Assembly (NCBI RefSeq): GCF_002313155.2
Contig: NZ_NWFK02000001.1
Span: forward strand, 2,604,001-2,668,000
Direction: 5' to 3'
DNA from: Psychrobacter sp. FDAARGOS_221
GTDB taxonomy: Bacteria; Pseudomonadota; Gammaproteobacteria; Pseudomonadales; Moraxellaceae
DNA: 64,000 bases
Position numbers and translations under genes: made by a program. Numbering within the stretch: the stretch's first letter is position 1; every line of letters starts with the position of its first letter. The notes under the pieces were generated by a model, which was given only the letters and a program-made list of their open reading frames with translations, was not told the DNA's origin and searched no databases. Below, in pieces: positions 2,293 to 44,499 of the stretch.

Positions 2293-2333
2293 TTAAATAG
2301 TTGAGTAAAATAATCAATCAAAAAGGAGCTATT

Positions 2334-2699
2334 ATGACAATCACCGTTTATGGCATTAAAGCTTGTAGCACCATGAAAAAAGCCTTTACCAAGCTTGATG
2401 AGATGGGCGTGGCGTATGACTTTCATGATTATAAAAAGCAAGGCATTGATAAGGACAGTGTTCAACGTTGGGTCGATGCGTTGGGCATTGCCAAAGTATT
2501 AAATAAACGTGGCACCACATGGCGTAATTTGACTGATGAGCAAAAAGCAGCGGCAGATGCCAGTGTCGATACTGCTATCGACTTGTTGGTAGAAAACACC
2601 AGCATGATTAAGCGCCCTATGATTGAGGGTGAGATTAATGGTAAATCGGTATGTCTGTGCGGCTTTGATGACGCAGAGTATGAGGCTGTTTTTGGATAA
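2334..2699 (+). CDS. ArsC/Spx-family thioredoxin-fold reductase-like protein
   Basis: A 121-residue member of the arsenate reductase (ArsC/Spx/YffB) family: small cytoplasmic thioredoxin-fold proteins with one N-terminal active-site cysteine. The sequence shows ITVYGIKACSTMKKAF with Cys10 where YffB-type proteins have GI..C.T.KKA, then the family patterns VLNKRGTTWRNL and SMIKRPMIE ahead of the C-terminal Arg/Pro loop. The start is set at ATG 2334 because AAAAGGAGC lies 5-8 bp upstream; the longer frame from 2301 adds eleven residues without family similarity. No arsenic resistance genes are nearby, so an arsenate role is unlikely; YffB-type proteins have no firmly known substrate. It appears monocistronic, preceded by an 8-bp tandem repeat. 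Confidence 0.88.
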   Translation: MTITVYGIKACSTMKKAFTKLDEMGVAYDFHDYKKQGIDKDSVQRWVDALGIAKVLNKRGTTWRNLTDEQKAAADASVDTAIDLLVENTSMIKRPMIEGEINGKSVCLCGFDDAEYEAVFG

Positions 2700-2842
2700 A
2701 GTTTGCTCAATTCGTTGAGTAAAGAGCACAATACAAGCCACATCAGGCATTAGCGATACAAAGCCTGAATGAAAAGTGTCTAATTAAAAAAGCCCTAATT
2801 AAAAGAGCCTAACTAAAAAGGCCTCTACAAAAAAGGAATGCT

Positions 2843-3205
2843 ATGAAAAATATTGCATCTGCGGCATCGCTTGTCATAACAGCGGCGCTGCTTGCTACCT
2901 CAGCTCAGGCAGCAGAACCAACGACTAAGCTTGTGTTTGCTAAAGGCAGTTATTGCGGCAGCTTCAGCGGTGACTTAAAGCGAGGAAAGCGCTTTAGTTT
3001 GTGGCTGCTGGCCAATCAAGAAGTGATTATTCGTAATACAGGTTATAGCAAAATCAAAGTGGCTTACATTGACTCACCCAACGGGCGTGTGAAGGGTGAG
3101 CATTTTGATAATATGACCTCTTTTTATACCACCAAAAGAGGCAATCACTATATTAAGATTTATGGCAGCGACCATCATAGTTCAGTTGAGATATGTGCCT
3201 ATTAG
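2843..3205 (+). CDS. Small secreted (periplasmic) hypothetical protein
   Basis: A 120-residue protein with a clear Sec signal peptide: basic MKN, a hydrophobic core (AASLVITAALLA) and a signal peptidase I site after SAQA near residue 23. The mature protein of about 97 residues is basic, has cysteines in SYCGSF and at the end (EICAY) that could form a disulfide, and is beta-rich by eye. A ribosome binding site (AAAAGGAA) precedes the ATG by about 4 bp. No domain family is recognised. It stands alone between the ArsC-like gene and the giant lipoprotein. The size and cysteine pair are compatible with a small periplasmic binding or inhibitor fold, but there is no direct evidence for either. Confidence 0.75.
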   Translation: MKNIASAASLVITAALLATSAQAAEPTTKLVFAKGSYCGSFSGDLKRGKRFSLWLLANQEVIIRNTGYSKIKVAYIDSPNGRVKGEHFDNMTSFYTTKRGNHYIKIYGSDHHSSVEICAY

Positions 3206-3723
3206 ATTGCCCTAGAAGTGTTGGGCGCTTTAGCTCAACGCCTCATCAATATTACGACTGATCAGTTTACCGACACCTTCATTGGTGAAGATTTCAAGAA
3301 TAGTTTTTATTACTTTTAAAAACCTTGAGTTGCTTAGAGGTAGCTTTGTTGTATTTTTATATTTCACTAAATACCAAGTTGTTCAGCTTTAACAATACGC
3401 AACTTATAAAGTTTTAATTATATTATTATCAACAACCTATAAGGTATAAGAATAAATTATATAATTAAAAATTCTAAAATAACTGATTAAATTACATTAA
3501 TAGTGGTGTCCGTAATATCAAATAAAGCTTGATATTATTAGTTTTTTGTATCATATTTCAAAGTGTAAATGTTTAGTTGTTTTTTGTATTTAAGCTAAAT
3601 GTAATAGAGTAAATGATAAAAAAAATTAAAGGTTTTCAAAAAATAGTGTTTAGTAAATAGCTAACTATAGGGTGTTTTAGTTAAATCATCTAATTTTATA
3701 TATATAAACAGGGAGATAGTTTA
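3206..3723. other. AT-rich leader region of the giant lipoprotein gene
   Basis: 518 bp with no credible coding frame, markedly more AT-rich than the flanks and full of A/T runs. It probably carries the promoter and upstream elements for the surface lipoprotein at 3724. GGGAG at 3711-3715 is the ribosome binding site, 8 bp before the ATG. No specific operator was identified. Confidence 0.55.
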
Positions 3724-6700
3724 ATGCTACCAAATAAACAGTCCATCTTAATGGACATAACAATAGATAAAATTAGTACCAAATTAAAACCAAGTGTTGT
3801 GTTATTGACATCGGTAATTCTTGCTTCATGTGGCGGCAGTGGTTCAGGAGGTAATTATACTAGCCCTACAGAGCTCGTTAGCACTACTGATTCATTGGCA
3901 CAAGCCCAAATAAGCGACGCTCAAAAAGCAGTCGACACTGCCAAGCGACAAGCCTTAGAAGCGCAAGCGGCAGCAAAAGCAGCCAAACAAGAAGCAGACC
4001 AAGCCAAAGCCGAAGCGCAAACAGCTAAACAGCAAGCCGAACAAGCAGGTAGTGACAATACCAAGCTAACCCAAGCGCTACAAAAAGCAGAAGCAGCCAA
4101 ACAAAGCGCAGAAACAGCAGCCACAGCAGCACAAACTGCTAAAGCAGCAGCAGAGGAAACACTAGCTAAAGCTCAAGCGGCAGCGCAACAAGCAATAGGC
4201 GCAGCCAAAGCAGACGCACAAGCCCAAGTTGACCAAGCCAAAGCAGAAGTTGCGGTTGCTAATGAAGCCTTACAAGCAGCAGAGCAAGCCAAGAATGAAG
4301 CACTAGCAGCAAAAGCACAGGCAGAAGCCGCCAAAGACACAGCCGTCAAACAAGCACAAGCCCAAATAAGCGACGCTCAAAAAGCAGTCGACACTGCCAA
4401 GCGACAAGCCTTAGAAGCGCAAGCGGCAGCAAAAGCAGCCAAACAAGAAGCAGACCAAGCCAAAGCCGAAGCGCAAACAGCTAAACAGCAAGCCGAACAA
4501 GCAGGTAGTGACAATACCAAGCTAACCCAAGCGCTACAAAAAGCAGAAGCAGCCAAACAAAGCGCAGAAACAGCAGCCACAGCAGCACAAACTGCTAAAG
4601 CAGCAGCAGAGGAAACACTAGCTAAAGCTCAAGCGGCAGCGCAACAAGCAATAGGCGCAGCCAAAGCAGACGCACAAGCCCAAGTTGACCAAGCCAAAGC
4701 AGAAGTTGCGGTTGCTAACGAAGCCTTACAAGCAGCAGAGCAAGCCAAGAATGAAGCACTAGCAGCAAAAGCACAGGCAGAAGCCGCCAAAGACACAGCC
4801 GTCAAACAAGCACAAGCCCAAATAAGCGACGCTCAAAAAGCAGTCGACACTGCCAAGCGACAAGCCTTAGAAGCGCAAGCGGCAGCAAAAGCAGCCAAAC
4901 AAGAAGCAGACCAAGCCAAAGCCGAAGCGCAAACAGCTAAACAGCAAGCCGAACAAGCAGGTAGTGACAATACCAAGCTAACCCAAGCGCTACAAAAAGC
5001 AGAAGCAGCCAAACAAAGCGCAGAAACAGCAGCCACAGCAGCACAAACTGCTAAAGCAGCAGCAGAGGAAACACTAGCTAAAGCTCAAGCGGCAGCGCAA
5101 CAAGCAATAGGCGCAGCCAAAGCAGACGCACAAGCCCAAGTTGACCAAGCCAAAGCAGAAGTTGCGGTTGCTAACGAAGCCTTACAAGCAGCAGAGCAAG
5201 CCAAGAATGAAGCACTAGCAGCAAAAGCACAGGCAGAAGCCGCCAAAGACACAGCCGTCAAACAAGCACAAGCCCAAATAAGCGACGCTCAAAAAGCAGT
5301 CGACACTGCCAAGCGACAAGCCTTAGAAGCGCAAGCGGCAGCAAAAGCAGCCAAACAAGAAGCAGACCAAGCCAAAGCCGAAGCGCAAACAGCTAAACAG
5401 CAAGCCGAACAAGCAGGTAGTGACAATACCAAGCTAACCCAAGCGCTACAAAAAGCAGAAGCAGCCAAACAAAGCGCAGAAACAGCAGCCACAGCAGCAC
5501 AAACTGCTAAAGCAGCAGCAGAGGAAACACTAGCTAAAGCTCAAGCGGCAGCGCAACAAGCAATAGGCGCAGCCAAAGCAGACGCACAAGCCCAAGTTGA
5601 CCAAGCCAAAGCAGAAGTTGCGGTTGCTAATGAAGCCTTACAAGCAGCAGAGCAAGCCAAGAATGAAGCACTAGCAGCAAAAGCACAGGCAGAAGCCGCC
5701 AAAGACACAGCCGTCAAACAAGCACAAGCCCAAATAAGCGACGCTCAAAAAGCAGTCGACACTGCCAAGCGACAAGCCTTAGAAGCGCAAGCGGCAGCAA
5801 AAGCAGCCAAACAAGAAGCAGACCAAGCCAAAGCCGAAGCGCAAACAGCTAAACAGCAAGCCGAACAAGCAGGTAGTGACAATACCAAGCTAACCCAAGC
5901 GCTACAAAAAGCAGAAGCAGCCAAACAAAGCGCAGAAACAGCAGCCACAGCAGCACAAACTGCTAAAGCAGCAGCAGAGGAAACACTAGCTAAAGCTCAA
6001 GCGGCAGCGCAACAAGCAATAGGCGCAGCCAAAGCAGACGCACAAGCCCAAGTTGACCAAGCCAAAGCAGAAGTTGCGGTTGCTAATGAAGCCTTACAAG
6101 CAGCAGAGCAAGCCAAGAATGAAGCACTAGCAGCATTGGCAGAAACAAGGCTGGGCAATTTTGTTTCACCAGACTCTGTTATATCAGGTGCACAGATTGT
6201 AGCGGTTGGGACAGCCTCTGGTGTATTTACTAGTTCGCCAGACAATTTTGATATGCAAAAAGTTAATGTTAATGATGTTAGTGACAAGTCGTCATTGGCA
6301 CCGCTTGATATTCAATTACGCGGTGAAGATGATACGGCGTACGGAGATGTAGAGGCAGGATTGAAACAGCACTCTGGCAGCCTAAGTTTCAAAGGTTATG
6401 ATGGTGTAATTACACTTTATAATCGTAGTTTAAACTATGATTCTATTTATAAAAACTTTGATGAAGTCATGCAGATAGGCCATATCAATGGCGACATTAA
6501 AAGTAGTATCTTTTTTAATCAGCCACTTGCTACCGTATATGCACAAGGGCGAGCCACGAACTTAGATGATTTTAATGAGCTGGCAGTTCGAGATGAAGGC
6601 AAAGTAAATTACAAAGGTATGGCGACTTATAAAGAGCAAGACACTGACGTTGTTAGTGGTAGTTCTGATTTTGATGTTGATTTTATTAATAAGTCAGTTA

Positions 6701-9591
6701 ATGGTACCTTAAAATTTAAAGACGCTGATTATCAATATATGCCTGAAGGTAATGAAATAGCAATTCAGGCTTTAATAGAAGGCAATAAGTTTCAAGGCAG
6801 TAGTCAGGGGATAGAAACATCGGGTGGGTTTTATGGATCAGGCGCCAAATACCTAGGTGGCGTCTATGCAAATTCAGGTGATAATAAGCAGTTTATAGGA
6901 ACCTATGGTGCTAAAAAGATAGCGCCACCTATCAATCCTGATACACCTGTGCAAGATGAGCTAACTGGCTTTCAAAGTAATACAGTCAGCAACTCTTCAG
7001 GATTCGTTGTCAGCGCCAAAATTAACACAGACATACATGATGATAAATCAGATTGGATAGAGACAGTAGAGGAAGATGGGCAGCTCATAGCGATAGACAA
7101 TCGTGAAGGAGATAATTTCACCAGTTATGATAGCTTTTTAATGCGTTCTGATATGACCAACGCTAAAAAAATCAAACAAAAAGTTGCCATCAATATTAAA
7201 GCTGATGATGATGCAAGTTATGGTAATGGATTTAAACTTCATAAAGATAAGACTGAAGTTAAAGGATCTTCTACCATGACTATGGATTATACGACGATTT
7301 ACAAAGACTTTGATGGTGCAATGCAACTGGGTCATGTCTATGGAGAGCCTGATGGTGGTTTTTGGGTAGGTAAAGATGCGAGGCTTTCAACTGTATTTGC
7401 TCAAGGTAATGCGACAAGTTTAGATGATATGCAGTATATGAAAGACTTGGCTCAGTATCAGATTGAAAGTGGTAATAGTGGTGATGGTAAGGTGAGTTAT
7501 GAAGGTGTTGCTACTTATCTAGAAAACATCCATCAAGGCGATAAAGTTCATACCGGACCTGTTGTCGATGGCGTTTCTAAGTTTGATGTTGATTTTGTCG
7601 GCAACTCAGTTAAAGGTGAGCTCTCATTTGATCAAGAGCTAGCTTATAACTCAAGTGGCAAGGTTCGTATTGAAGCGGTTATTGATGGAAATCAATTTTC
7701 TGGTAATACCAACAATATTGATGCCTCAGGTAGCTTTTATGGTGAAGATGCCAAGTATATAGGCGGTGTTTATCAACAAGTATTGACTGAAGGTGGCAAA
7801 GGAGATGAGCCTGGAACAGCAACTACTTTCCAAGGTACCTATGGTGCGACGCAAGTAGATGCTGTGGTAGTTGATCCTGCAGAGCCCGAAGTTCCAGCAG
7901 AACCAAAAAGCAATCAATCAGGTGTACAAACACTACAAGTAGCTGTTGATCTGTTAAACAAAAAGTTTGCAACCACAACTCGAGACTTCGAAGTTGATAA
8001 TGATAAGGTGGTCGCGCGTACAGATATTATTTCTAATGGGCTGTTACCAAAGCTAGATATTAATTTTAACAATGGTTCAGAAACAGATAGAGGTTTTAAT
8101 ACCGCCACTAATGACACCAGTATCAAGACCGAACTAGGCGAACTGCCAGTAACGTATCAGTCTGTATATAAAAATTACGATGATCAGATGATGATTGGTC
8201 AGATTGCTGGTAATGCTACCTTTGCGTCAATGGAGATTCCATTAGAAGGTGCATTTGCTGTCGGTAATGCAACTGCCACAGAGAATATGCCAAGCGAGGG
8301 TAGAGTATTATATAGCGGTGATGCGACTTATCGTGATATGAGACAAGCTGATAAGGTTGAGTTGGGCGAGTCATCATTTGTTACAGACTTTGTTGCAAAA
8401 GAAATGACAGGCAGCTTAAATTTTGCAGACAACAAAAAAGTAGACTTATCAGCAAGAATAGAGGGTAACCAGTTTTCAGGAACAGCTAGAAATAACAAGG
8501 GTTTTGAAACTTCTGGTAGTTTTTATGGTGATTTGGCTGAGCACTTAGGTGGGACGTATCAAGGCAATCATATTATAGGGAGCTATGGTGCGTCAAAGCA
8601 AGAAACCCCTGCACCAGACGTTTTACCGAAACCTGAGCCGGTCTTACCGGTTAATGTTGAGGTTGCGCCAGATACAGGATTAAGCGGATTTCAAAGTAAT
8701 ACATTAAGTAGTTCAAAAGGCTCATTTACAGATGATGCCATTGGTTATGTGCAAATTAGAAATGATAAATCAGATTGGGATGAAACCATAAAGCTAGGAG
8801 GACAGTTTGGTGATGTTGAGCTTGCTATTGATAATAAACAAGGTGATAACTTTACCAGCTATGACAGTTTTCTAGCCCGCGTAGACATGATAAATCCAGA
8901 CAGCATTAAGGATAAAGTGACGATAGCTGTTAAAGGAGAAAAGGATACTGATTATGGTGATGGCTTCAAAGAGCATCAAGACAGTGTAACAGTACAAGGT
9001 CCTATTGGCTTAACTTTGGCGTATTCAGCAGTATACAAAGACTTTGACTCGCAGATGCAAATTGGACATGTCTATGGCGACCCTGATGGCGGATTCTTTG
9101 TTGGCAAGCAAGCCAGATTTTCTAATGTATTTTCTCAAGGTAATGCGACGGATCTAGCTGACATGACCTATATGAAAAATTTAGCACAGTATAATTTAGA
9201 GACAGGTGTTAATGATGGCCTAATAAACTATACAGGTGTGGCTACTTATATGGAAAATTTACATCTAGGCGACGGCGCGCGTAGTGGACCGATAACCAAT
9301 GGAACCTCTACATTTGACGTGGACTTTATTAGTAATACGCTCACAGGAGAGTTGTCGTTTGCAGGTGACTTTAAGTATAACCCAAGCGGTAAAGTATTTA
9401 TCGAGGCGAATATAGAGGGCAATACATTTGCTGGCGATGCTAATAACATTGATACAGCAGGTGGTTTTTATGGAGAAGATGCAAAATATATCGGTGGTAT
9501 TTACCAGCAAGCTCTAGATATAGGTGGTAAAGGAGATGTACCTGGTACTGGTACTGCTTTCCAAGGTACGTTTGGTGCTGAGAAGCAATAA
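3724..9591 (+). CDS. Giant surface lipoprotein: repeat coiled-coil stalk plus four TbpB-like barrels
   Basis: A 1955-residue predicted outer-membrane lipoprotein. The N-terminus has basic residues (DKISTKLKP), a hydrophobic run and a lipobox ending VILASC, with Cys36 as the lipid-attachment residue, then a Gly/Ser tether. Residues about 60-804 are an Ala/Lys/Gln/Glu-rich coiled-coil stalk made of a 152-residue repeat present 4.9 times. Residues about 805-1955 hold four related domains, each ending in the TbpB-like signature G-G/S-FYG..A..(L/I)GG.Y followed by G(T/S)(Y/F)GA (near 6828-6915, 7731-7851, 8514-8595 and 9462-9582). Domains 2 and 4 are close copies. Such barrels occur in Slam-dependent surface lipoproteins of Neisseria and Moraxella (TbpB, HpuA, fHbp). 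Surface display and ligand binding are inferences; no Slam gene is in the window. Confidence 0.85.
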   Translation: MLPNKQSILMDITIDKISTKLKPSVVLLTSVILASCGGSGSGGNYTSPTELVSTTDSLAQAQISDAQKAVDTAKRQALEAQAAAKAAKQEADQAKAEAQTAKQQAEQAGSDNTKLTQALQKAEAAKQSAETAATAAQTAKAAAEETLAKAQAAAQQAIGAAKADAQAQVDQAKAEVAVANEALQAAEQAKNEALAAKAQAEAAKDTAVKQAQAQISDAQKAVDTAKRQALEAQAAAKAAKQEADQAKAEAQTAKQQAEQAGSDNTKLTQALQKAEAAKQSAETAATAAQTAKAAAEETLAKAQAAAQQAIGAAKADAQAQVDQAKAEVAVANEALQAAEQAKNEALAAKAQAEAAKDTAVKQAQAQISDAQKAVDTAKRQALEAQAAAKAAKQEADQAKAEAQTAKQQAEQAGSDNTKLTQALQKAEAAKQSAETAATAAQTAKAAAEETLAKAQAAAQQAIGAAKADAQAQVDQAKAEVAVANEALQAAEQAKNEALAAKAQAEAAKDTAVKQAQAQISDAQKAVDTAKRQALEAQAAAKAAKQEADQAKAEAQTAKQQAEQAGSDNTKLTQALQKAEAAKQSAETAATAAQTAKAAAEETLAKAQAAAQQAIGAAKADAQAQVDQAKAEVAVANEALQAAEQAKNEALAAKAQAEAAKDTAVKQAQAQISDAQKAVDTAKRQALEAQAAAKAAKQEADQAKAEAQTAKQQAEQAGSDNTKLTQALQKAEAAKQSAETAATAAQTAKAAAEETLAKAQAAAQQAIGAAKADAQAQVDQAKAEVAVANEALQAAEQAKNEALAALAETRLGNFVSPDSVISGAQIVAVGTASGVFTSSPDNFDMQKVNVNDVSDKSSLAPLDIQLRGEDDTAYGDVEAGLKQHSGSLSFKGYDGVITLYNRSLNYDSIYKNFDEVMQIGHINGDIKSSIFFNQPLATVYAQGRATNLDDFNELAVRDEGKVNYKGMATYKEQDTDVVSGSSDFDVDFINKSVNGTLKFKDADYQYMPEGNEIAIQALIEGNKFQGSSQGIETSGGFYGSGAKYLGGVYANSGDNKQFIGTYGAKKIAPPINPDTPVQDELTGFQSNTVSNSSGFVVSAKINTDIHDDKSDWIETVEEDGQLIAIDNREGDNFTSYDSFLMRSDMTNAKKIKQKVAINIKADDDASYGNGFKLHKDKTEVKGSSTMTMDYTTIYKDFDGAMQLGHVYGEPDGGFWVGKDARLSTVFAQGNATSLDDMQYMKDLAQYQIESGNSGDGKVSYEGVATYLENIHQGDKVHTGPVVDGVSKFDVDFVGNSVKGELSFDQELAYNSSGKVRIEAVIDGNQFSGNTNNIDASGSFYGEDAKYIGGVYQQVLTEGGKGDEPGTATTFQGTYGATQVDAVVVDPAEPEVPAEPKSNQSGVQTLQVAVDLLNKKFATTTRDFEVDNDKVVARTDIISNGLLPKLDINFNNGSETDRGFNTATNDTSIKTELGELPVTYQSVYKNYDDQMMIGQIAGNATFASMEIPLEGAFAVGNATATENMPSEGRVLYSGDATYRDMRQADKVELGESSFVTDFVAKEMTGSLNFADNKKVDLSARIEGNQFSGTARNNKGFETSGSFYGDLAEHLGGTYQGNHIIGSYGASKQETPAPDVLPKPEPVLPVNVEVAPDTGLSGFQSNTLSSSKGSFTDDAIGYVQIRNDKSDWDETIKLGGQFGDVELAIDNKQGDNFTSYDSFLARVDMINPDSIKDKVTIAVKGEKDTDYGDGFKEHQDSVTVQGPIGLTLAYSAVYKDFDSQMQIGHVYGDPDGGFFVGKQARFSNVFSQGNATDLADMTYMKNLAQYNLETGVNDGLINYTGVATYMENLHLGDGARSGPITNGTSTFDVDFISNTLTGELSFAGDFKYNPSGKVFIEANIEGNTFAGDANNIDTAGGFYGEDAKYIGGIYQQALDIGGKGDVPGTGTAFQGTFGAEKQ
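3901..6135 (+). repeat. 456-bp in-frame tandem repeat, about 4.9 copies, nearly identical
   Basis: Copies begin at 3901, 4357, 4813, 5269 and 5725; the fifth ends after about 411 bp, near 6135. The period is exactly 456 bp (152 codons), so gain or loss of units keeps the frame. The only difference I could see between copies is one silent T/C site: T at 4263, 5631 and 6087, C at 4719 and 5175. Such uniformity points to very recent expansion or ongoing gene conversion. The unit encodes an Ala-rich helical stalk segment. Confidence 0.95.
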
Positions 9592-9650
9592 AGTAGTCTG
9601 TACTCGTTGCAGTTGACAGTAATTTATTTGTCATAATAATAATGAATGAA

Positions 9651-9691
9651 CAAAAAGGCAGTTATAATTAATTATAGCTGCCTTTTTTTAT
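9651..9691 (+). terminator. Rho-independent terminator after the giant lipoprotein gene
   Basis: An inverted repeat pairs AAAAAGGCAG with CTGCCTTTTT around an AT-rich centre, followed by a T run at 9682-9689. It lies 60 bp after the stop codon, and its A-rich left arm could also let it work on the minus strand. Confidence 0.85.
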
Positions 9692-9722
9692 CTCTATGTT
9701 CCCTACTAATATAAGTTTGTTT

Positions 9723-10383
9723 CAATATAAGTATTCTGATAAGGACATCCAGGCTCGATATAGTCAATGTAGATACCGTGAGTCGATGCCCAATCAGTGA
9801 ATGTGCTAGATGTAAACTTACTGCCGTTATCCACACGAATTTGCTTAGGATAGCTATGCCACTCAGCTAACTAATCAAGGTAGCGAATTACTCGGAGTGA
9901 AGGCATATTGGTACTAATATCAATACCTAATACTTCACGGTTGTAATCATCAATCACATTAAAGGTTCGAAAGCGAATATTGTCATGCAGTTTGTCGCTC
10001 ATGAAATCCATAAACCAAGTATGCCCTAATACACTTGGCGCACTTAGCGGCTGAGGATTGCGTATTGGTAGCCGTCTTTTAGATTTACGGTGAAGATTCA
10101 AGTTTAACGCTGTGTAAACACGGTGTACGCGCTTATGATTCCATGAGTAGCCAAGCTTGCGTATGCATTTTAAGCACTTTGGGAAACCCCAACGATTATG
10201 CTTGTCCGTAAGCTTATTTAAGACATCAACAATCTCGCTATCATCAGATAGTTTAGGCTTATAGTAGTAAGTGGTTCGACTCATGTAGACCACCTGACAA
10301 CTTACCGCAATACTGACACCATACTGCGCCTGTAACTTTTGCGCCCAGACTTTGCGATCGCAAGCAGGCGCTATAGCTTTTTT
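9723..10383 (-). pseudogene. IS3-family transposase OrfB, broken
   Basis: The DDE integrase-type transposase subunit. The readable frame includes VSCQVVYMSRTTYYYKPKL, LTDKHNRWGFPKC, YSWNHKRVHRVY and FRTFNVIDDYNREVLGIDI (second catalytic-Asp region), then RYLD followed by an in-frame TAG at 9871 where relatives have Gln. After the stop, similarity resumes (LAEWHSYPKQIRVDNG, TDWASTHGIYIDYIEPG) and then breaks off at YIE, before the conserved catalytic region is complete. A nonsense mutation plus a 3' deletion make it inactive. Translation would have depended on a -1 frameshift from orfA at A6G (10377-10383). Confidence 0.9.
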
Positions 10384-10695
10384 ATGATCTCTTCCTGCAT
10401 TTGCGATTTGAGGCTTAAATCAGCATACATCTGTTTAAGCCTACGGTTTTCTTCTTCAAGCTCTTTTAGTCGTTTGACGTCAGAGGCGCTTCTATACAGC
10501 CGTATTTCGATTTAACTTCGCTATCGTTCCGTCTTGCGTCACTAAAACAGTCCCTCAGACTGTTTCTTAACGTCTCTTATTATAAAAAGTTGAATTAGCA
10601 GTCCCACATTTACGGCACAGCTCTTTAGCAGGTATTCCTGCTTTTGATTCTTTTAAAATCGATACTATTTACGTTTAAGTCATTTGTTTGCTCAT
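10377..10695 (-). pseudogene. IS3-family OrfA (helix-turn-helix protein), broken
   Basis: The DNA-binding subunit of the IS. Recognisable pieces are IVSILKESKAGIPAKELCRK with STFYNKR (helix-turn-helix) and ASDVKRLKELEEENRRLKQM (leucine zipper). In-frame stops follow the start (ATG at 10695), and a 59-bp insertion at 10512-10570 splits the helix-turn-helix from the zipper. The frame ends at EEIIKKL-stop, overlapping orfB at the slippery heptamer A_AAA_AAG typical of the family. Confidence 0.85.
10512..10570. repeat. Small hairpin insertion inside orfA, bounded by TTAA
   Basis: A 59-bp segment interrupts orfA between the TFYNKR and SKYG coding parts. TTAA lies at both ends (10512-10515 and 10567-10570), and it holds a perfect 8-bp stem, AAACAGTC/GACTGTTT (10545-10552 and 10558-10565), with a 5-nt loop. 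It looks like a small mobile or REP-type insert with a 4-bp target duplication; no other copy was seen in the window. Confidence 0.6.
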
Positions 10696-10750
10696 ATCAA
10701 AACTGCTTAAGGGTATGGTATTTTATAAGAAATTCTACGTTTGAGCTGTG

Positions 10751-12529
10751 CTATTTTAGGGGATAGTTACACAATCTTATTATCCCAAAACCTTGGTCAA
10801 AATCCAAACGTAAGCCATCAATGCAGCTGAGACGTACTTTCTCAGGGGCGAAGTTGAGGTTTAAGGTTTCAGGATGTTGTTGTAGCCGTTGGCACAACTG
10901 GCTTAGTTTATCACGGACCAGTTGTACTGGGTTTTTACTATTAACTGAATCGGCAACTTTCGCCGGAAATTCATGCGTGTCAGTGTATTTTCCTGCTGCA
11001 GACATCTCATCCGGAGAGGCTGTTTCATTCGACAAATCAGGTTCAAGCTCAGACTCAGATAGGCCGGGGCTTAAAGCTAGGTCAGTTAAGCCTGATAGCG
11101 GTAAGTACTCATCTGCGGTGCTGACCAGTGGCGGTAGACCATCTAAGATGTCTGACAGTTGTAGCGATTTGTTTGTCACTAACTGATAGCGCTGGGTGTT
11201 ATAAACCAACCAGTTTAATAGGCGTAATCCAGCATACATCGCATCATCGTGCAATAAGAAGTAGCCATCGTTGAATAAGAAGTGACCGGATAATTCACCG
11301 GCAAATAGGGGGCCTTGCTCTTCAGCGTCAGTTGAGTCAGCAGGAGAATAGTTATCGGCTAACTGACGGCTTTTGGCATATACCGCATGACGCAAGATGC
11401 TGCTGCCGGTTTTGCTCATTTGCCCAGTCGCACCGATTTGTTCTAATAGCTGTGGCACTTGATGTGCGCATTTAACATCAAAGATGACAATCGGTTTTTG
11501 ATTGCTATTGTTATTTGCAGCAGATACTTCTACGCGACTGTTAGTATCGTGATTTAAGTCAACATTGTGCTTGTGACCTAAGTAATAGTCCTCTACCGCC
11601 ACTTGCGCCAATAGATAAAGCAGATGATCCGGTGCTAATGGTCGACCCAGATTATCGACGACCATTAAGCGGTCACCATCACCATCAAAGCCAAGGCCGA
11701 TATCGGCTTGATGTTCAATCACCGATGCTTGCAATTCACGCAAGCGATGGGGCTGAGTCGGGTCAGGATCACCTTTTGGGAACTGCCCGTTGGGATCTTG
11801 GTTTAATAACACAGCCTCAGCACACAGATTTGACAGTTGACCAAAAAACAACGGCGCAAACGGTCCAGTAGCCCCATTTAGGCAGTCAATGACTACCTTT
11901 AATGGCTGAGCATTGGGAATGGCAGTATTGGACGCCATATGTGTGAGCTGCGCTTGATACAGCGGTTGGATATGATCGATGGCTTGTTTGGCGCTAGCAA
12001 AATAGGGTGCTGTCACTTGTTCACGGCTTAGCGTGATTAAATGAGTAGGGTCTAAGTTAGTAAGGTCAGCAGCTAATTCAGTGGTTTCAAGTTCAGGAGA
12101 CAGCTCATAAGTCTCGGTCGCCAGTTGATCATACAGGGCGATAATATCTTCGCTACTGGGCGACTGCCCATGCACCACCCACTTAATGCCATTGATAAAA
12201 CGGGTCGAATGACTGGCAGTAGTAATCAGACCATGTCCCTGATATTGGTTGGCCCAGAACACCATAATCGGTGTGGTCACCAGCCCCAACCAGATGACCT
12301 CAACACCCGCCTGACGACAACTGAGCGCAAATTGCTCAGCAATCGTCTGACTATCTTGACGCATATCATAGCCAATCACAATCTGCGACGCGCCAATGCT
12401 ATCACGCAAATAGCGGGCAAAAACGCGGCTTAACGCGGCAACAAAAGGCGGGGTGAACAGCGCATGTTTACCACGAATATCATAGGCTTTAAACAAGGGG
12501 CGCTGAGCGACAAAAGGATGTGAGGGCAA
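10751..12529 (-). CDS. Phosphomannomutase/phosphoglucomutase family protein, C-terminus cut by IS
   Basis: An alpha-D-phosphohexomutase (AlgC/ManB type), which interconverts hexose 6- and 1-phosphates for LPS and exopolysaccharide synthesis. Of 592 residues, PLFKAYDIRG near residue 11 is the N-terminal signature, LITTASHSTRFINGIKW carries the phosphoserine (Ser106; the usual TGSHNP reads TASHST), FDGDGDRLMVVD is the metal site, and GELSGHFLFNDGYF is the sugar-binding loop. A Ser/Glu-rich insert of about 70 residues (near 470-540) makes it longer than the usual 460. Domain 4 stops at GFGIIRLCNYPLK: the phosphate-binding R-x-S-N-T-x-P loop is broken and about 30 residues are missing, exactly where the IS begins. 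It lies downstream of dut. Activity is probably impaired. Confidence 0.85.
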   Translation of the reverse strand: MPSHPFVAQRPLFKAYDIRGKHALFTPPFVAALSRVFARYLRDSIGASQIVIGYDMRQDSQTIAEQFALSCRQAGVEVIWLGLVTTPIMVFWANQYQGHGLITTASHSTRFINGIKWVVHGQSPSSEDIIALYDQLATETYELSPELETTELAADLTNLDPTHLITLSREQVTAPYFASAKQAIDHIQPLYQAQLTHMASNTAIPNAQPLKVVIDCLNGATGPFAPLFFGQLSNLCAEAVLLNQDPNGQFPKGDPDPTQPHRLRELQASVIEHQADIGLGFDGDGDRLMVVDNLGRPLAPDHLLYLLAQVAVEDYYLGHKHNVDLNHDTNSRVEVSAANNNSNQKPIVIFDVKCAHQVPQLLEQIGATGQMSKTGSSILRHAVYAKSRQLADNYSPADSTDAEEQGPLFAGELSGHFLFNDGYFLLHDDAMYAGLRLLNWLVYNTQRYQLVTNKSLQLSDILDGLPPLVSTADEYLPLSGLTDLALSPGLSESELEPDLSNETASPDEMSAAGKYTDTHEFPAKVADSVNSKNPVQLVRDKLSQLCQRLQQHPETLNLNFAPEKVRLSCIDGLRLDFDQGFGIIRLCNYPLK

Positions 12530-42798: not shown

Positions 42799-43287
42799 AT
42801 GGTGCAGCAATTGTATCTTGAAGATATCAACGTAGGGGACAGTTGGGTCAGCCGTGAAGAAACTATTAGCGAAGCGGAAATCAAAGCTTTTGCTAAAGAT
42901 TATGACCCACAGCCGTATCACCTAGATAATGAGCGCGCCAAAGATACTTTCTTCGGCACTTTAGTTGCCAGTGGTTGGCATACTGCCGGGGTAACCATGC
43001 GTTTGATGGTGGAGAGCATTCCAATTGCAACCGGTCTGATTGGCGCCGGAGCGCAAATGAGCTGGCCGATGCCGACCTATCCAGGTGATGTGCTGCATAT
43101 CAAAGCAGAGGTGGTTGAGATTAAAGCGTCAAAGTCTAAGCCAGATCAGGGTATGGTTGTGGTACAAATTGACACCTATAATCAAGACAATAACATTGTG
43201 CAGCATTTTACTTGCACCATGCTGGCGTTTAAACGCAGTGCTGGTATTGTGCCGTTAAATAATGAGCGACTGTTAGGGACTCAATAA
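42799..43287 (+). CDS. MaoC-like (R)-specific enoyl-CoA hydratase/dehydratase
   Basis: A hot-dog fold protein of 162 residues in the MaoC-like dehydratase family, acting on acyl-CoA (hydration of enoyl-CoA) in fatty-acid or related metabolism. The hydratase-2 motif is visible as AFAKDYDPQPYHLDNERA, with catalytic Asp and His, then FFGTLVASGWHTAGVTMRL. MSWPMPTYPGDVLHIKAEVV completes the fold. AGGAGAGAA about 6 bp before the ATG is a strong ribosome binding site. Substrate cannot be told from sequence. It is probably a single-gene unit; a CTAA microsatellite lies between it and rnz. Confidence 0.9.
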   Translation: MVQQLYLEDINVGDSWVSREETISEAEIKAFAKDYDPQPYHLDNERAKDTFFGTLVASGWHTAGVTMRLMVESIPIATGLIGAGAQMSWPMPTYPGDVLHIKAEVVEIKASKSKPDQGMVVVQIDTYNQDNNIVQHFTCTMLAFKRSAGIVPLNNERLLGTQ

Positions 43288-43320
43288 CTGGCTTCTTTAA
43301 GCTTATAGCTGACTAATTAA

Positions 43321-43372
43321 CTAACTCACTAACTCACTAACTCACTAACTAACTAACTAACTAACTAACTAA
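43321..43372. repeat. Microsatellite: CTAACTCA x3 then CTAA x7
   Basis: Three perfect CTAACTCA units (43321-43344) run into seven CTAA units (43345-43372), 53 bp before the rnz start. Tetranucleotide tracts mutate by slippage; here the tract is in a spacer, so copy number would alter promoter or leader spacing for rnz rather than a reading frame. Confidence 0.9.
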
Positions 43373-43425
43373 CCCTGACTCACATTGTAACCCGTACTTA
43401 TATTGATAGGATAATCACTCAAGCT

Positions 43426-44499
43426 ATGCTGCAATTGACCTTCTTGGGCACCTCAGCCGGTATTCCCACCAAGCACCGCAATGTCACGGCGTTGGCGGTT
43501 GAATGTATCAATCCCTTTGCTTCTAAGCGTAGTCAGCAAAGCGGCAGCAAAAAGCCTTGGGTATTAATCGATTGTGGCGAAGCAACCCAGCATCAGCTGT
43601 TACATACCAAGCTGAGCGGTCAGCAGTTGGCAGCAGTTTGTATTACCCACGTGCATGGCGATCATTGCTATGGTCTACCGGGGCTGTTAGCCAGTTTGGC
43701 TATGGCAGGACGCACTGAGCCTTTGACTATCATTGCTCCGAAAGCTATTGAGCAGTTTATGAGTGCGATACAGCAGACCACTGAGCTGTATTTACCCTAT
43801 GCGATAACCTATATCGCTACTGAAAACTTAGTTGCTGAAAGCGGTCAATCTAATCAGCCTGTGTTATTCGATTTATCAGCCACGCATCAGCTTCAAATTG
43901 AGGTAACTAAGTTATCGCATCGTGTTGATTCTTATGCCTATAGCTTGACCCAAAGCGTCGAAACCATTGCGCTAGATAAAGATAAATTACTGGCCTCTGG
44001 TATCGAGCCGAGTCCAATTTGGGGGCAGCTGCAAGCGGGCGAAGATGTGATTACTGAAGAAGGGCAGCGACTGGCTTCGGTTGATTTTACACTGCGCAAA
44101 CAGCAGCAGCTTAAGATAGTCGTCGCCGGTGACAATGACAGTCCAAATCTATTACGACAAGCGGTACAGGGCGCAAGCTTGCTGGTTCATGAAGCCACTT
44201 ATACTCAAGCGGTGGCGGATAAAATTGCTATGCGTGTTGATGGCTTTGACCCGATGCACACTACTGCAAAAAGTGTGGCACAGTTTGCGCAAGCGGTTAA
44301 TTTGCCACATTTAATAGTGACTCACTTTAGCGCCCGTTATCAGCCGTACGATGACCCAGACAGTAAGGTTTCCAATATGGCCGATATACGCCAAGAGGTT
44401 GAGAAGTTTTATCAGGGCAATGTATGGCTAGCACGTGATTTTGCACAGTTTGAAGTCAGCGCAGATGGTGTTAAGTCTAATGCGAAGGATAAGGTTTAG
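43426..44499 (+). CDS. rnz: Ribonuclease Z (MBL-fold tRNA 3' processing endonuclease)
   Basis: Zinc-dependent beta-lactamase-fold nuclease that trims tRNA 3' ends (or acts as RNase BN on other RNAs where CCA is encoded, as for the tRNAs here). Of 357 residues, LTFLGTSAGIPTKHRNVTAL is the family start, VLIDCGEATQHQLL follows, and the metal site is in CITHVHGDHCYGLPGLL. The second half has LLVHEATYTQAVADK, DPMHTTAKSVAQFA and LIVTHFSARY with further ligands. It is slightly longer than E. coli ElaC (305). The ATG at 43426 has only a weak upstream AGGATAATC. A GNAT gene follows after 2 bp, implying co-translation. Confidence 0.93.
   Translation: MLQLTFLGTSAGIPTKHRNVTALAVECINPFASKRSQQSGSKKPWVLIDCGEATQHQLLHTKLSGQQLAAVCITHVHGDHCYGLPGLLASLAMAGRTEPLTIIAPKAIEQFMSAIQQTTELYLPYAITYIATENLVAESGQSNQPVLFDLSATHQLQIEVTKLSHRVDSYAYSLTQSVETIALDKDKLLASGIEPSPIWGQLQAGEDVITEEGQRLASVDFTLRKQQQLKIVVAGDNDSPNLLRQAVQGASLLVHEATYTQAVADKIAMRVDGFDPMHTTAKSVAQFAQAVNLPHLIVTHFSARYQPYDDPDSKVSNMADIRQEVEKFYQGNVWLARDFAQFEVSADGVKSNAKDKV

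Follow-up and report, generated by a model that had tools for sequence, protein, structure and literature searches.

The 64,000-nucleotide window analysed here, that is, the whole stretch of DNA taken from the single contig of Psychrobacter sp. FDAARGOS_221 (3,160,997 bases, completeness given as 100%), carries a gene with a long, near-perfect tandem repeat. This raises the question of what kind of protein bears such an array, how the array arose and what its length might mean for the protein. Outside the array, the gene is organised as follows:

3724..9591, + strand: gene for a 1955-aa lipoprotein of the Slam-dependent surface lipoprotein type (open frame, Pfam, NF041636)
3724..3831, + strand: signal peptide with lipobox LASC (residues 33-36), Cys36 predicted to be lipidated (pattern match)
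3832..3897, + strand: 22-residue linker from Cys36 to the array (translation)
6595..6918, + strand: TbpB-type barrel 1 (PF01298, 63.8 bits)
7483..7851, + strand: TbpB-type barrel 2 (PF01298, 51.8 bits), placed together with barrel 4 by the domain tree
8287..8598, + strand: TbpB-type barrel 3 (PF01298, 74.3 bits)
9217..9585, + strand: TbpB-type barrel 4, C-terminal
9652..9687, + strand: terminator-like hairpin 3' of the lipoprotein gene (16 pairs and a T run; consensus match only)

The encoded protein matches the NCBI curated model NF041636 (slam_lipo) at 179.4 bits (cut-off 80) and the Pfam family TbpB_B_D (PF01298) in four stretches at 171.5 bits (cut-off 26), and its first 57 residues are 53% identical to the leader of a 2404-aa sister lipoprotein. 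A structure model of its C-terminal part matches the TbpB C-lobe, and a profile search matches TbpB and hemophilin chains by sequence. The lipobox with Cys36 supports the description of the product as a lipoprotein in an earlier note on this DNA and, together with the array and the TbpB-type barrels, its view of the stalk as a spacer separating lipid anchor and folded domains. Judged from its sequence, the protein would be an outer-membrane surface lipoprotein of the Slam/T11SS type, presumably exposed via Slam, with barrel 4 as the putative Slam-targeting end by analogy with TbpB as described in excerpts of PMC12282271. Two other assignments were rejected: the match to Lpp/OprI-type alanine-zipper lipoproteins reached 27.5 bits, below the cut-off of 43, and, for a trimeric autotransporter, Pfam searches at E values up to 0.1 returned TbpB_B_D only and no YadA-type anchor.

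The genome contains 13 TbpB-type matches, of which the 3724-9591 gene accounts for four, a cluster at 2.45-2.46 Mb for eight and a gene at 1.70 Mb for the last. It also has two Slam genes (PF04575; 233 and 224.8 bits, cut-off 22), neither of which adjoins the 3724-9591 gene; the nearer ends approximately 143 kb from the start of this gene. In the sister cluster, three lipoproteins (557, 734 and 2404 aa) are followed by this nearer Slam gene, and the repeats comprise a 48-bp unit (10 copies, L009 4863-5341) and a 30-bp unit (9.7 copies, L009 6917-7208), both in spacers, as well as coil-plus-barrel modules of 1656 bp. The second Slam gene comes after the TbpB-type gene at 1.70 Mb, at a locus flanked by a pair of proteins, named by eye as Sel1-like repeat proteins, parts of which are very similar to each other (L010 3330-3776 and 6827-7696). 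As for a TbpA-type receptor, TIGR01776 aligns with two separately scored pieces of one 838-aa frame, at 165.3 and 108.8 bits, each short of the cut-off of 468.8, and no match in any of 14 control genomes exceeds this cut-off either.

Tandem Repeats Finder placed a repeat of period 456 bp at 3898-6135, with 4.9 copies and 99% matches, and base-by-base comparison resolved it into four complete units plus a shorter fifth one of 414 bases:

3898..6135, + strand: whole array, 4.9 units of 456 bp, predicted Ala-rich helical spacer, residues 59-804 (repeat finder, comparison, helix model of the first two units)
3898..4353, + strand: unit 1, T at 4263 (base-by-base comparison)
4354..4809, + strand: unit 2, C at 4719 (base-by-base comparison)
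4810..5265, + strand: unit 3, C at 5175 (base-by-base comparison)
5266..5721, + strand: unit 4, T at 5631 (base-by-base comparison)
5722..6135, + strand: partial unit 5, 414 of 456 bp, T at 6087 (base-by-base comparison)

The lone variable site lies at unit position 366 and reads T, C, C, T, T along the array; in every unit it is the third base of an Asn codon (AAT or AAC), so that the change is silent and the units are identical in protein sequence. The earlier note had thus described the array correctly in its period and copy number, in its single silent T/C site (T in copies 1, 4 and 5, C in 2 and 3) and in its frame, since 456 is a multiple of three and the array is in frame with the surrounding gene; only the start, given as 3901, has to be moved three bases upstream. 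With approximately 107 synonymous sites per unit and one that varies, chance can be ruled out as the cause of unit identity, and either copying was recent, as that note had proposed, or uniformity has been kept by recombination. The 2404-aa sister gene, by comparison, has 22 differing codons, 13 of them silent, among the 878 compared between its first two modules of 1656 bp. The suggestion that the array is antigenic, in the sense of sequence change, finds no support in units of a single protein sequence. An 8-bp sequence, CATTGGCA, is found in the same frame at both array edges (3893-3900 and 6134-6141) and also at 6293, 13718 and 61192; a role for it in the mechanism was rejected.

Shorter repeats occur elsewhere in the window. 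An ACTA tetranucleotide tract of 15.5 copies (43312-43373), a possible length-variable control element, lies between ORFs named by eye as MaoC-like (42799-43287) and metal-dependent hydrolase-like (43426-44499), and 3.9 copies of the 8-bp unit GTTTAGTG (2263-2293) lie just upstream of the ArsC-like ORF.

The stalk slice at residues 59-805 (747 residues) contains 290 alanines and no proline. A single-sequence AlphaFold model on this low-complexity input, beginning at Cys36 and covering the first two units (pTM 0.57), has pLDDT below 50 at residues 1-9 and predicts helices at model residues 13-72, 77-224 and 229-327, one of which is complete (148 residues); the four-residue breaks between them would fall once per unit, at Gly-Ser-Asp-Asn. 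The hydrophobic periodicity of the unit peaks near 3.54 residues, a peak reached by none of 1000 shuffles, and power at the exact heptad period of 3.5 is low (0.82), which leaves a canonical heptad coiled coil unsupported. The predicted breaks bear on how unit number would act, since the stalk may fold back at the break in each unit and extra units might then not extend its reach. Each unit would in that case be a 148-residue helix turning back at GSDN, and added units would thicken, or zigzag within, a compact bundle approximately 22 nm in length instead of lengthening a ruler. The model helices and their breaks are consistent with such folding, as are the highest-Z structure matches, mostly to model residues 120-328 or so, among which are chemoreceptor and Smc coiled coils, known as antiparallel hairpins, and the loose pattern of a Gly-rich motif after Ala matched by 79 of 83 relatives. 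We regard the bundle as a possible but rather unlikely arrangement; were the units to fold back, the placing of the barrels would depend on whether the unit number is odd or even, and such a length code had no precedent in the literature excerpts consulted.

To place the array within its family, we surveyed genomes and databases for the C-terminal domain and for the 152-aa unit separately. Of 105 genus genomes, 22 possess the C-terminal domain, counting the present one, and the present one is the only genome in which the unit was found, at E values up to 0.001; in a large protein database, the unit was found in one protein, its own, among 7988 scored candidates. Variation at the 3724-9591 locus itself was therefore not observed. 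Composition-corrected blastp of the unit against the sister cluster coils gave no match at E up to 1, and the short DNA matches between them (68-95% identical) are indistinguishable from shared composition. From fetched loci we recovered 54 matching family frames, of which 13 were dropped as open-ended or lacking a lipobox or barrel motif, leaving 41 complete ones. Their estimated anchor-to-barrel spacers, whose end was set 220 residues ahead of the first barrel motif found and which are thus overestimated where the first barrel has no motif, range from 32 to 777 residues (median 165), with the 3724-9591 gene the longest. By eye, the spacers are of several unrelated repeat types, including Ala-rich coils, Pro-Thr, Pro-Thr-Asp, Gly-Thr-Gly-Asp and Gly-Ala-Thr; a sister lipoprotein of another genome, G061, combines a collagen-like Gly-Ala-Thr spacer with a 753-bp tandem module (L056 9480-12743).

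A search among the 7991 candidates with most shared words yielded 83 barrel-region proteins, the 1955-aa protein and its 2404-aa sister among them. Repeats of 535-560 residues, corresponding to a coil-plus-barrel module, are found in 23 of the 83, and coil-only repeats, of 142 and 164 residues, in two. Forty pairs passed a similarity prefilter and were aligned globally, 38 of them at over 85% identity. In two sets of pairs, near-identical proteins differ by a whole unit or module. P0059 carries 142 additional residues in its N-terminal coil relative to P0057 and P0058, to which it is otherwise 99.0 and 98.8% identical over 1297 residues, apart from lacking a 22-residue stretch elsewhere; the additional stretch shares 87% identity with the sequence lying 142 residues downstream. 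P0003 exceeds P0009, P0011, P0013 and P0014 by 542 residues, is otherwise 98.6-99.0% identical to them, and the additional stretch is 100% identical to the next coil-plus-barrel module; the entries P0003 and P0011 carry the species name P. glaciei. Database entries for relatives may be misassembled, and contig sizes of 1.15 Mb (P0003), 494 kb (P0009), 319 kb (P0011) and 3.4 Mb (P0014) make this less likely for the 542-residue case. P0061 and P0064 (95.9% identical over 1523 residues) differ by 161 coil residues, slightly fewer than the 164 of the repeat in P0061, and 15-residue differences occur early in the spacer of P0009 versus P0011 and P0022 versus P0024. Other differences do not correspond to units: P0051, named partial, lacks its N-terminal part, P0067 and P0069 diverge at the N terminus, P0029 is 44 residues longer than P0028, and P0042 lacks a 128-residue stretch that P0037, P0041 and P0047 have within a module and that in P0037 is 94% identical to a stretch 540 residues earlier.

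Together, the relatives one whole unit apart suggest, on comparison of their sequences, that the spacer length of such lipoproteins can change by recombination. The change of length that the earlier note had envisaged is thereby supported for relatives that gain or lose one in-frame unit or module, as in the P0059 and P0003 pairs, but not at this locus, where the unit is confined to one genome. These pairs provide the idea with its best support, although from other members of the family.

The surroundings of the gene bear on its origin. The genes flanking the site, which we take to be ArsC-like and phosphomannomutase-like, are both present in 96 genomes and lie on one contig in 91. In this genome 8057 bp separate them; in the other 90 the gap has a median of 1688 bp and does not exceed 2725 bp. 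The G032 gap holds argB, and the argB coordinates of G003, G036 and G092 likewise fall within the gaps (four genomes examined). Two relics flank the lipoprotein gene in our window:

3233..3304, - strand: 24-codon 3' argB remnant (75% identity to residues 280-303 of the G032 argB product, E 0.0016)
9690..10760, - strand: decayed IS3-family element with broken frames (NF033516, 83.8 bits, under the cut-off of 160)

The lipoprotein gene and the IS3 relic, 87% identical pieces of which occur at eight other places in the genome, fill the site where relatives have argB (region 2301-12529), indicating that the gene probably reached this position as a copy, through relocation or insertion. A plasmid origin was rejected, as tblastn of the C-terminal domain against PLSDB returned no plasmid match. 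The argB model exceeds its cut-off in 101 of the 105 genus genomes but not here or in G062, G067 and G075; with argB reduced to 24 codons and argC and argH kept in this genome, a need for arginine is predicted unless the step is bypassed. The site also holds a secreted-looking 120-aa ORF (2843-3205). Neither Pfam nor NCBIfam matched it at E values up to 0.1, and G032 has a relative of it at the corresponding position (L074 1238-1672).

A relocated copy could have acquired its array as a passing accident, through recent neutral amplification without selection for arm length. The confinement of the unit to one of 105 genomes, and the position of the gene beside a decayed IS3 element where argB was lost, fit this explanation. 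The frame, however, has been kept over 1955 codons, one-unit differences are found in other family members and long spacers recur with unrelated sequences, and we consider a purely neutral origin doubtful. An assembly artefact, in which the true unit number is not 4.9 or the array was collapsed or expanded, is very improbable, for although short reads cannot resolve identical 456-bp units, the genome is a single contig, the variable site follows the ordered pattern T, C, C, T, T and one-unit differences also occur in relatives.

The explanation we favour, and consider likely, is that of a Slam/T11SS-type surface lipoprotein with a helical spacer made by recent tandem amplification. An N-terminal lipid would anchor the protein, and four TbpB-like barrels would lie beyond the Ala-rich spacer of approximately 747 residues. 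The spacer would have formed by recent amplification of one 152-residue helical unit, through recombination between identical in-frame copies or replication slippage, and we infer recombination as the cause of the array; a like change would add or remove a coil unit or a coil-plus-barrel module elsewhere in the family. Its likely role is to hold the barrels off the outer membrane and to set their distance and freedom. Several findings weigh against parts of this explanation: the gene does not adjoin a Slam gene, the unit was found in no other genome or protein among those searched, the stalk may fold back and no TbpA-type match passed its cut-off. Excerpts of PMC9090332 report that Slam1 translocates unfolded TbpB, so that a long spacer could conceivably be exported as well.

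More broadly, we tentatively propose that Psychrobacter possesses a family of modular lipoproteins for display, with the place between lipid anchor and barrels taken by any of several exchangeable repeat types (Ala-rich helices, Pro-Thr, Pro-Thr-Asp, Gly-Thr-Gly-Asp, collagen-like Gly-Ala-Thr). Units or modules may be gained and lost so rapidly that even near-identical proteins differ in them; these lipoproteins would be a Slam-exported, lipid-anchored counterpart of Periscope Proteins. Slam/T11SS cargo has been studied for the ligands of its barrels, and the distance of these barrels from the membrane may also change by recombination. Short-read assemblies are likely to miss variation in spacer length, and near-identical proteins one unit apart make it testable.

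The lipoprotein family itself is known, and it is the nearly perfect helical spacer array that is unusual. The protein shares with TbpB the fold of the C-terminal lobe, from which it departs in its four barrels and long helical spacer. It resembles trimeric autotransporter adhesins, such as Moraxella UspA1, in a predicted coiled-coil stalk that could change length, but it is a lipoprotein, its only Pfam family is TbpB_B_D and it has no YadA-type anchor. Closer relatives are found in a survey of T11SS cargo (PMC12282271), excerpts of which name Psychrobacter surface proteins with approximately 12 Pro-Thr-Asp repeats and two to three handle-barrel pairs, as well as Pls-like cargo with helical repeats. 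Our protein agrees with the Psychrobacter group described there in genus, lipobox, N-terminal low-complexity or repeat region, several TbpB-type barrels and Slam genes, and differs from it in a predicted Ala-rich helix of approximately 747 residues, near-perfect 152-aa units and four barrels; its proline-free stalk has no Pro-Thr-Asp repeats. Change in unit number was not found in these excerpts, the words Psychrobacter, stalk, coiled and linker do not occur in those of the Slam family paper (PMC5449769), and no report of repeat-number change in Slam cargo or Psychrobacter appeared among the open-licence papers listed, which for one query were 20 of 693.

The closest functional concept is that of Periscope Proteins, for which repeat-number change by intragenic recombination has been proposed (excerpts of PMC8201768 and PMC9704523), and whose review, in the part excerpted, excludes coiled-coil trimeric adhesins. 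As excerpted, Periscope repeats fold individually into an elongated monomer rod and their number differs between close strains, whereas the stalk modelled here would be an Ala-rich helix with breaks and possible fold-back, its length variation is seen only in family relatives and the anchor is an N-terminal lipid of the Slam type. What the two have in common, given the surface attachment predicted here and Periscope Proteins as excerpted, is a series of long, highly identical in-frame tandem repeats placed between the anchor and the distal domains.
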